This document shows positions 2,665-11,680 of a stretch of DNA of 33,244 nucleotides, piece by piece. A program made the position numbers and the translations under genes. The stretch spans positions 1 to 33,244 of the forward strand of contig NZ_BATR01000049.1 of assembly GCF_000739655.1 (NCBI RefSeq), given 5' to 3'. The stretch is from Verrucomicrobium sp. BvORR106 (lineage in GTDB: Bacteria; Verrucomicrobiota; Verrucomicrobiia; Verrucomicrobiales; Verrucomicrobiaceae). The notes beneath the pieces were generated by a model, which saw nothing but the letters and a program-made list of their open reading frames with translations, searched no databases and had not been told where the DNA came from. Numbering within the stretch: the stretch's first letter is position 1; the number at the start of each line of letters is the position of its first letter.

Positions 2665-3441
2665 ATGTTTTCCCGCCTTCTTCTTCTTGCTGTGGTGGTT
2701 CTCGGGGCGTTCGATGCGGCGGCGCAGACGCCTGCCCCATTGCCCAAGGTGTTGTTTTTTGCCAATCCCATGGGCTCAGACAACGATGTGATCCGGCGTA
2801 CATCACCGAATGAGCTGTCCGTGGCGGAGCGGAACTTTGCCGAGTTGAGTAAAGGCCTCTTCGAGGTCACGATCACACAGAATGGCCACGAGGTGACGGC
2901 GGCCAAACTGAAGCAGTACGACGCGATCGTGTTCTTCACCGCCATCAATCCGCCGGGTGTGGATGTGCTGGCGCTCACGGAGTGGGTGAAGAACGGCGGC
3001 GCTTTCACGGGCATTCACTCCACGGCGAACACGTACCAGGAAGTCCCTGCCTTCGGGCAGATGCTGGGGGCCTACTATGACCGGCGTCCCTGGCGCACGC
3101 GGCAGGCACCCCAGACGAAAGTGCGCGTGAAGGTCGAAAATCAAACCCACCCGGCGACGAAACACTGGGGCACCTCGTTCGAGATCGCGGATGACATCTA
3201 CCAGTTCAAAAACTTCGACCGCAGCAAGGTGGACCTGTTGCTCAGCCTGGATCCACAGAGCCTCGACCTGGCAAACAAGAAAGTGAATGCCAGCGACAAA
3301 GATCTCGCGGTGTCCTGGGCGAAGACGCAGGGAACCGGCCGGGTTTTCTACACGGCACTCGGTGACTGGGAAGAGACCTGGAAGAATCCGGACTACCGGA
3401 CCCACCTCATCGAAGGCATTCGCTGGACGCTGAAGAAGTGA
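2665..3441 (+). CDS. Secreted ThuA-like domain protein
   Basis: A 258-aa protein starting at the ATG at 2665. That start places a clean signal peptide (MFSRLLLLAVVVLGAFDAAA) at the N-terminus. The same frame stays open 64 codons upstream, but that extension would bury the signal peptide and looks non-coding. The mature part is a ThuA-like (trehalose-utilisation type, glutaminase-amidotransferase-like) fold. Visible segments are QYDAIVFFT, GGAFTGIHSTANT, the FGQMLGAYY segment, and the C-terminal AVSWAKTQGTGRVFYTALGD followed by IRWTLKK. Most relatives have GH where this one has GD after TAL. ThuA-like, DUF1080 and Gfo/Idh/MocA proteins recur together in Verrucomicrobiota and Planctomycetota, and a role in 3-keto or otherwise modified glycoside catabolism is inferred from that company. 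Confidence 0.87.
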   Translation: MFSRLLLLAVVVLGAFDAAAQTPAPLPKVLFFANPMGSDNDVIRRTSPNELSVAERNFAELSKGLFEVTITQNGHEVTAAKLKQYDAIVFFTAINPPGVDVLALTEWVKNGGAFTGIHSTANTYQEVPAFGQMLGAYYDRRPWRTRQAPQTKVRVKVENQTHPATKHWGTSFEIADDIYQFKNFDRSKVDLLLSLDPQSLDLANKKVNASDKDLAVSWAKTQGTGRVFYTALGDWEETWKNPDYRTHLIEGIRWTLKK

Positions 3442-3446
3442 CATTC

Positions 3447-3836
3447 TGCCCGCTGCGCGGGAGACAGAAGACTGCCAGACGCCAGACTGAAGACTTGAGC
3501 TCTCGCATGGGAGTGTACGACCGGCGGCCCCTCTGTAAAGGGAGCGAGGGACATTCCTGTCCCGGTCCGCCCCAAACGTCCCATGATGCCGCGTTCTGCC
3601 CCAACACCCAACCACCCCGGGCTGTAGGGCGACCGCTCCCGTTGCCTCAATCAGGAGCCGTTCGCGGCAAGCGGAGCGCTTGCCCTACAGGCGGTCATCT
3701 TCTCGTGCTGCTCACACCCAACGACATCTGCTGCCCAACCCCTCCGCTCTCGCCCCGACGGAGACCGTCGGACTACTCCCGCAGCGTCGCTTCGGGAGTA
3801 GTCCGGACGTGCCGTCCGGCTCAGTCGCCGCACCCA
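3447..3836 (+). repeat. Composite multi-hairpin intergenic repeat, copy A
   Basis: This covers most of the 552-base gap between the ThuA-like gene and tRNA-Val; I see no gene in it. Four modules occur in the same order as in 11334-11680. (1) CCCGC/GCGGG hairpin, 3449-3461. (2) A conserved block at about 3535-3586 with the perfect hairpin GGGACA-TTCC-TGTCCC. (3) A long imperfect inverted repeat, 3622-3690, bounded by CTGTAGGGC and GCCCTACAG. (4) A block at about 3742-3836 with three successive hairpins: CCGACGG/CCGTCGG (3755-3771), GGACTACTCCCG/CGGGAGTAGTCC (3770-3804, 12-bp perfect stem) and GGAC/GTCC (3805-3817). It begins 6 bases after the upstream stop codon, so it may also serve as a terminator. 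Confidence 0.8.
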
Positions 3837-3993
3837 TCCGGGACCAAGCCACGCTCCCTCCGCCACCTCCTCTTCATCTATCGGTAACATCGAACAAAAT
3901 CCGCCCCAAACGACACCCCACTTCGGGTCACAATCATCGCGCCACTGTATCTTCAGCAGGGCCTCAGACGCCATCATCGGCTTGAAAAAAGAG

Positions 3994-4065
3994 TGCGCAG
4001 GGAGGGGATCGAACCCCCGACCAACTCGGTGTAAGCGAGCCGCTCTACCGCTGAGCTACCTGCGC
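3994..4065 (-). tRNA. tRNA-Val (anticodon TAC)
   Basis: A 72-nt cloverleaf folds on the minus strand. The acceptor stem GCGCAGG pairs perfectly with CCTGCGC. The D arm is GCTC/GAGC, the anticodon stem GCTCG/CGAGT has loop CTTACAC, and the T arm has the TTCGATC loop. Positions 34-36 are TAC, which reads Val GTA and, by wobble, other GTN codons. The discriminator base is A and the 3' CCA is not encoded, so it must be added by the CCA-adding enzyme. A run of six T on the minus strand directly after the gene could end transcription. Confidence 0.95.
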
Positions 4066-11333: not shown

Positions 11334-11680
11334 TGCCCGCCTGCTTCGCGGGAGACGCGAGATAAAAAGACTCCAGGCATCATGCGCGACGAGGCGGTCA
11401 GTAAAAGGAGCGAGGGACATTCTTGTCCTGGTTCGCCACAAACGTCCCATGAGTGTGCCATAGAGATCTCGTGGCCAAGCCATCTGGGTGTGACGCTGTA
11501 GGCCCCACGCGGCAAGCGGAGCGCTCGCCCTACAGCGTCAATAACCTCAGACCGTCCAATCGGCATCTGCCCGTCACCCCCTCCGCTCCCAACCCGACGG
11601 GGACCGTCGGACTACTCCCGCAGCGTCGCCACGGGTGTAGTCCGGACGTGCCGTCCGGCTCAGTCGCCGCACCCCGCCAG
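11334..11680 (+). repeat. Composite multi-hairpin intergenic repeat, copy B
   Basis: Second copy of the composite element seen at 3447-3836, in the same orientation and again downstream of a plus-strand gene. Module 1: CCCGC/GCGGG at 11336-11352. Module 2: about 11401-11453, with GGACA-TTCT-TGTCC. Module 3: 11491-11540, bounded by a perfect 12-bp inverted repeat TGACGCTGTAGG/CCTACAGCGTCA. Module 4: about 11578-11675, with CCGACGG/CCGTCGG, GGACTACTCCCG paired to CGGGTGTAGTCC with one mismatch, and GGAC/GTCC. Spacers between modules differ from copy A while the modules themselves are well conserved. The rest of the gap to 11829 is pyrimidine-rich and shows no gene. Confidence 0.8.

Follow-up and report, generated by a model that had tools for sequence, protein, structure and literature searches.

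The composite repeat that occurs twice in the DNA analysed here is very probably a mosaic: a cluster of mobile elements of the REP type, which accumulate in the gaps between genes, with some copying of whole arrays in addition. The window is the entire contig C161 (33,244 nt) from the 8.69-Mb genome of Verrucomicrobium sp. BvORR106, here G000. Two of the four modules of the composite, M3 and M4, bear the marks of GTAG-tagged repetitive extragenic palindromes (REPs), of which they are dimers; M1 and M2 would also be palindromic repeats, of the REP/TIR kind. The data behind this reading are the copy numbers, the dimer structure and the covariation of the M4 hairpins, together with the transposase genes flanked by M4 or M3 REPs, the module differences between orthologous gaps and a tandem duplication in G003. 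Comparison genomes were G001, likely Verrucomicrobium sp. BvORR034 by our assumption, G002 (76% complete) and G003 (one contig of 8,220,857 bases), which we take to be V. spinosum. Gene neighbours were called with our own codon-usage gene caller.

M1, M2, M3 and M4 follow one another in identical order and orientation in copy A (3447-3836) and copy B (11334-11680), with unlike spacers between the modules, as the initial annotation had described (Table 1). The stems that it named are also present: GGGACA/TGTCCC pairs perfectly in copy A and has one mismatch in copy B (TGTCCT), and the 12-bp arm GGACTACTCCCG pairs fully in copy A and with one mismatch in copy B. Two features can be added to that description: the left half of M3 is missing in copy B, and the GGACTACTCCCG arm is formed where two GTAG REPs meet, as a consequence of their opposed GTAG heads. 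Between copies A and B the M1 hairpin loop changes from 3 to 7 nt, M2 is 89% identical across 55 nt, and the M4 cores sit within a 136-nt stretch of 85% identity; the conserved flanks of M4 in copy A extend to about 3740-3835. An Rfam scan gave a tRNA as its sole match at the gathering score and no known RNA family for the composite. A tRNA-Val gene (anticodon TAC) lies just past copy A, at 3993-4065 on the minus strand.

Table 1. Coordinates of modules and neighbouring features in the window
Feature	Start	End	Strand	Description
M1 copy A	3447	3512	+	CCCGC-TGC-GCGGG hairpin (3449-3461), then 7-nt AGACNNN repeats
M2 copy A	3532	3586	+	GTAAAGGGAGCGA head, GGGACA-TTCC-TGTCCC hairpin, CAAACGTCCCATGA tail
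M3 copy A	3622	3690	.	HH pair of GTAG REPs, GTAG outermost, 19-nt spacer
M3 copy A, REP	3624	3646	+	
M3 copy A, REP	3666	3688	-	
M4 core copy A	3755	3819	.	TT pair of GTAG REPs, GTAG innermost, 21-nt spacer
M4 core copy A, REP	3755	3776	-	
M4 core copy A, REP	3798	3819	+	
Terminator-like hairpin	11287	11327	+	Stem of 18 pairs with a T-rich tail; lies after atpC and before copy B
M1 copy B	11335	11395	+	CCCGC/GCGGG arms retained (11336-11352), heptads decayed
M2 copy B	11398	11452	+	Single stem mismatch
M3 copy B	11495	11536	.	Right REP whole (REP -, 11511-11533), left REP body absent
M4 core copy B	11594	11658	.	

The modules are repeats scattered across genomes of Verrucomicrobium. A 401-nt composite query gave at least 80 matches in the own genome at E ≤ 0.01, with 40 of the 203 candidates scored. 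Pattern searches found M1 at 39 sites in G000, 62 in G001 and 61 in G003, and M2 at 65, 18 and 11 sites, respectively (68 in G000 with a shorter pattern); neither occurred in the other 54 of the 57 genomes. M3 was found at 15 sites in G000, 89 in G001, 264 in G003, 11 in G002 and seven in G007, with one match each in two further genomes and none in 50 of the 57. For M4, whose counts cover one arm type only, there were 67 sites in G000, 55 in G001 and 28 in G003; G002 and the remaining 138 of the 142 genomes had none. Reversed-pattern controls matched nowhere in any genome searched. In a named genome collection, where records very close to the window's own genome may be omitted, a degenerate M4 pattern matched 11 stretches, all from BvORR034. 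Simple local duplication had been named as the explanation if merely the two copies existed, with no module alone; it is ruled out by the copies across the genome, 15-68 of each module, among which modules also stand singly. Half of the listed M4 sites of G003 (14 of 28) fall at 4.17-4.20 and 4.73-4.92 Mb of its 8.22-Mb chromosome.

M4 consists of two inverted 22-mers with their GTAG tags facing, each made of GTAGT, a 7-bp stem and a 3-nt loop, that is, a short palindrome tagged GTAG at one end. Among GTAGT-CCG cores, a non-random sample with many loci chosen for carrying M4, 99 of 139 pair in at least six of seven positions, and 90 of these 99 belong to the seven commonest stem/loop classes. 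The TT dimers have spacers of 19-21 nt and join two different stem types in 16 of 16 cases. Across these 16 dimers all 14 stem pairs are formed in every copy, with two-sided changes in five pairs (13 cells) and G-U in one of 224 cells. The covariation score was reached by none of 500 shuffles, the number of two-sided pairs by one, and the measure of further pair types by 42; structures slid out of register drop to 8-50% paired. Covariation in the stems, the check proposed in the initial annotation, is thus seen in the small M4 REP hairpins but not in the long 12-bp arm at the M4 junction, which has no two-sided changes and pairs no better than shuffles, so the arm is ruled out as a covarying fold.

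M3 is likewise a GTAG-tagged palindrome in dimers, here HH with GTAG outermost; the 20 dimers in the loci examined have spacers of 18-20 nt and mostly hetero arms. Compensatory variants of the M1 hairpin (CCCGC-3-GCGGG) are few, and the GGGACA/TGTCCC stem of M2 is nearly invariant, which makes covariation uninformative for M2. The hairpins of 25 M2 stretches inspected, many of which also hold M1, have no GTAG. Being without the tag, M1 and M2 are not classed as GTAG REPs and are placed only as REP/TIR-like palindromic repeats.

Modules were sought around 74 transposase loci, some of them overlapping; G000 itself has 18 Y1_Tnp matches. One of its transposases, C53 (245 aa; locus L038), has M4 REPs on both sides as inverted repeats (67 nt, 87% complementary), and M4 is thus a case of the same REP flanking a RAYT-like gene. 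GTAGTCCGGCTG-type REPs lie on either side of the gene for the closest C53 relative in G001 (52%), and none of the G003 transposase loci examined carries M4, despite the 28 M4 sites in that genome. M3 lies on both sides of a RAYT gene in G002. The relative of this RAYT in G003 (61%) stands amid twelve M3 REPs with a period of about 142 nt in the 3465 bases examined, and the one in G001, with a broken frame, lies between two M3 sites, so that the same REP flanks a RAYT gene in all three genomes. None of the 18 candidates in G000 is an M3 RAYT, though its 209-contig assembly could hide one. M3 numbers run parallel to the state of the gene (264 sites where it is intact, in G003; 89 where broken, in G001; 15 where none was found, in G000), a relation that is only suggestive for a handful of genomes.

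For the other two modules the pairing is looser. M1 flanks both sides of one transposase at a G003 locus and its G001 ortholog (L191, L192) and is absent from the orthologous gap in G000 (L034). M2 resembles the array around the transposase at G003:1981348 (L206), with which it has head and tail in common (75%, E 9e-4); this array is the best lead to a partner for M2, a weak one, and we name no firm partner. In the own genome, none of the transposase loci L031-L044 has M2 within the flanks examined. Two of the four kinds of module, M3 and M4, can thus be matched to an enzyme that probably moves them.

The two HUH histidines and the tyrosine are invariant in five of five aligned transposases (H162, H164 and Y222 in C53, Y222 presumably being the catalytic tyrosine), and a PDB search with the C53 protein gave a single match at E ≤ 0.01, to TnpA-REP (4er8, E 0.0069). 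Against the NCBIfam RAYT model (cut-off 80 bits) C53 scores 58.7, the M3 RAYTs of G003 and G002 78.2 and 72.8, and the L206 enzyme 66.8, all below the cut-off. With Pfam Y1_Tnp (cut-off 23 bits) the scores are 40.8 for C53, 86.1 for the M1-flanked L192 enzyme, 32.2 for L206 and 20.7 for the G003 M3 RAYT, with no match for that of G002. C53 is called RAYT-like because of its Pfam Y1_Tnp score, its HUH/tyrosine motif and its REP flanks. The L192 enzyme exceeds the cut-off of the IS200 model (74.5 versus 55). Seven more short Y1 transposase genes of G000 (L031-L037) each lie between repeats of their own, mostly inverted and in L033 also direct, none matching M1-M4. The L206 gene lies between tandem arrays of units of about 144 nt headed GTAAAGGAGGCGGGG, and by eye similar pieces adjoin M1-M4 units of G000.

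In G000 the 191 listed sites form 134 clusters, 40 of which hold more than one site, and the modules recur singly, in other combinations and in other orders. Expected adjacencies were estimated crudely, assuming 0.9 Mb of intergenic space, on which any excess depends. On that basis M1-M1 is not enriched (1 observed versus 1.0 expected); M1-M2 (8 versus 3.6), M2-M2 (8 versus 3.2), M2-M4 (15 versus 6.3) and M1-M4 (10 versus 3.5) are enriched two- to threefold, and M4-M4 (11 versus 3.0), M1-M3 (4 versus 0.8), M3-M4 (7 versus 1.3) and M2-M3 (11 versus 1.4) more strongly. Some spacings recur: M1 and M4 are exactly 77 nt apart in five of ten pairs, and M4 is 98-101 nt from an inverted M2 in seven places.

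Orthologous gaps were compared in 16 pairs covering 11 distinct gaps, a list limited to gaps that hold a module and differ in length by at least 25 nt; since the loci were largely chosen for carrying modules, frequencies are not to be read from it. Module content differs in eight gaps. One holds M1-M3 in one genome and M1-M2-M3 in the other (L247/L178), another M4 or nothing (L224/L289), and a single gap has M1 in G000 (L270, C159:41000-44000), M2-M1 in G001 (L174) and a transposase gene in G003 (L207). Module sets are identical in L252/L166 and L012/L219, and M4 is in both members of L251/L215. No clean insertion junction was recovered, and the one M4 presence/absence pair inspected in detail, L224/L289, has blurred edges. 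Two candidates for a clean empty site were rejected: in L058/L219 M4 is present in both, and in L098/L123 the insertion contains no modules.

At the copy-B locus of G003 the array is present twice in tandem, with an extra repeat between M3 and M4 that by eye resembles the repeat of the L034 transposase. Copy A matches this G003 array more continuously than it matches copy B of its own genome, in segments of 251 nt (86%) and 132 nt (88%) that include the spacers. From the gap differences, the tandem array and this likeness we therefore infer traffic of single modules plus copying of whole arrays. The proposal that separate mobile units make up the composite is supported by the lone modules and other combinations, the transposases flanked by M3 and M4, and the gaps that differ by single modules. 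Nucleotide synteny with G003 stops at copy A (region 3441-3980 of the window). In BvORR034 (L223) an M4 dimer marks the point where the right half of the copy-B locus is joined to another left neighbour (region 11453-11600 of the window). The arrays may be rearrangement points.

On the mechanism that we propose, each M4 REP, as single-stranded DNA, would probably fold so that 7 bp pair around a 3-nt loop while the GTAG tag stays unpaired. The hairpin would be recognised, cut and joined by a small HUH-tyrosine enzyme (RAYT/TnpA-REP) whose gene lies between copies of the same REP; this would spread copies, which would persist mainly between genes, often right behind a stop codon. Gaps already holding one element would gather others, giving stacks, and whole arrays would sometimes be copied or duplicated in tandem, which would let some spacings and the M1-M2-M3-M4 order recur. 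The mobility of the modules is suggested by sequence comparison; the single-stranded step, the action of the enzymes on these REPs and the cause of the stacking are inferred.

A rival to this mosaic is duplication of the whole composite: the M1-M2-M3-M4 array would have arisen once, the window copies would be segmental, and the modules would not now move independently. The alignment of copy A, spacers included, to the G003 array, the tandem doubling of that array and the five M1-M4 pairs elsewhere with exactly 77 nt between them fit such an origin. It is opposed by the modules that stand singly or in other orders among the 134 clusters (40 multi-site), by the single-module differences between orthologous gaps and by M4 and M3 each flanking a transposase of their own; in the weaker sense of a process contributing beside the mosaic, whole-array duplication is a tentative, rather unlikely rival. 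Elements of different transposase families could also have fused into chimeric units moved as one piece, the enzyme of one family carrying the repeat of another, as in M1 with M4 at 77 nt or M4 with inverted M2 at 98-101 nt, and the ordered array being such a unit; this reading seems unlikely. Chance palindromes in a GC-rich genome would agree with folds of single modules that beat shuffles modestly (z -0.9 to -3.6, eight stretches), but each module has 15-68 near-identical copies in its own genome, which together with the empty reversed controls leave this reading next to no probability, and the copy counts rule it out. The mosaic itself is weakened by the missing GTAG of M1 and M2, by the M1-flanked transposase being confined to one locus shared by G001 and G003 and not G000, and by the weak likeness of M2 to the L206 array. 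Other points against it are the M3 RAYT not found in G000, the G003 transposase loci without M4, the unrecovered clean junction, the scores of C53 and both M3 RAYTs under the NCBIfam cut-off (the latter two also missing that of Pfam Y1_Tnp) and the 42 of 500 shuffles that matched M4 in further pair types.

A transcribed RNA element acting at mRNA 3' ends as stabiliser or terminator, under selection behind genes, would account for the position of the modules and for their conserved stems. The scoring of gene context was confined to M1, with 38 of its 39 sites placed. The M1 hairpin begins 0-16 nt past a stop codon in 14 of 38, which bears out a relation to gene 3' ends; among sites with two neighbours the count is 12 of 28, compared with 0.62 on average and 5 at most under random placement (20,000 draws). 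Copy A does lie just downstream of a plus-strand gene, its hairpin beginning 7 nt past the stop of 2665-3441. Copy B follows a plus-strand gene as well, about 78 nt past the atpC stop (11257), but stands behind the terminator-like hairpin of Table 1, which would place it outside the atp transcript, so that an effect on atp mRNA is unlikely and the suggested 3'-end RNA role doubtful at copy B. The scan alone is weak (one terminator found versus 0.5 expected in shuffles); by eye a like hairpin occurs at the same place in the V. spinosum locus L160. No such hairpin was found before copy A, where the RNA role is undecided. Further against an RNA element, the upstream neighbour of M1 is a gene 5' end in 13 of 38 sites (a 3' end in 20, the inside of a called gene in four, none in one), and the M4 stems change almost solely from one Watson-Crick pair to another, with the single G-U noted above. 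Published REPs lie equally close to 3' ends, which passages of PMC3733652 read as a hint of transcription. Taken as a whole, the RNA reading is improbable.

Small mobile repeats of the REP type are already known, and these families are new members of that kind. M3 and M4 resemble the GTAG REP dimers in passages of Di Nocera et al. (2013, PMC3733652), M3 as HH pairs with GTAG outside, spacers of 18-20 nt and mostly hetero arms, M4 as TT pairs with GTAG inside and spacers of 19-21 nt, all 16 of those examined here being hetero; complementary stem changes are likewise shared, and REPs there and M1 here are both close to gene ends. Those passages also report many REPs in the verrucomicrobium Opitutus terrae, the only member of the phylum that they name, mosaic intergenic regions in Neisseria and, in S. 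maltophilia, hybrid dimers that combine different GTAG families. Unlike these hybrid dimers, four repeat families are stacked here, in one order at two sites of the own genome and largely so at one G003 site. M1 resembles the TIR repeats of TIRYT genes in the same source at one locus shared by two species (L191/L192), where it lies in inverted repeats around an IS200-like transposase, and differs from them in its AGACNNN heptads. The word 'spinosum' was not found in the main text of that paper, and our searches of open-licence PMC papers showed no earlier report of REPs, of these families or of ordered stacking in Verrucomicrobium.

REPINs, as described in parts of Bertels and Rainey (2011, PMC3116915), are likewise inverted REP doublets as the repeated unit, with tandem arrays beside RAYT genes and one RAYT per REP group, and five regions there have REPINs in or adjoining other REPINs. 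Excision reads were available for REPINs, whereas mobility here is drawn from comparison. The enzymes share with RAYT/TnpA-REP proteins, in the portions of PMC8266576 and PMC6006769 concerned, the HUH and tyrosine core, one kind of REP flanking the gene and the match to PDB 4er8. C53 differs in having a long N-terminal part in its 245 aa and in falling below the NCBIfam RAYT cut-off.

For a little-studied phylum, this is an example of a genome in which several REP families have separate enzymes. For M3, the three genomes of the same genus form a natural series, with the transposase intact, broken or not found and 264, 89 or 15 repeats, respectively, in which the decay of REPs after loss of their enzyme and the ride-along of foreign REPs in mixed units become testable. 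The window also has a 42-nt direct repeat (GTACGAAGTACGAAATGCACGAAAAGAACGAAATCG...) at 86-127 and 282-323; similar stretches occur in L058 (G000), L219 (BvORR034) and L275 (G003), and it is another dispersed repeat of the genus.
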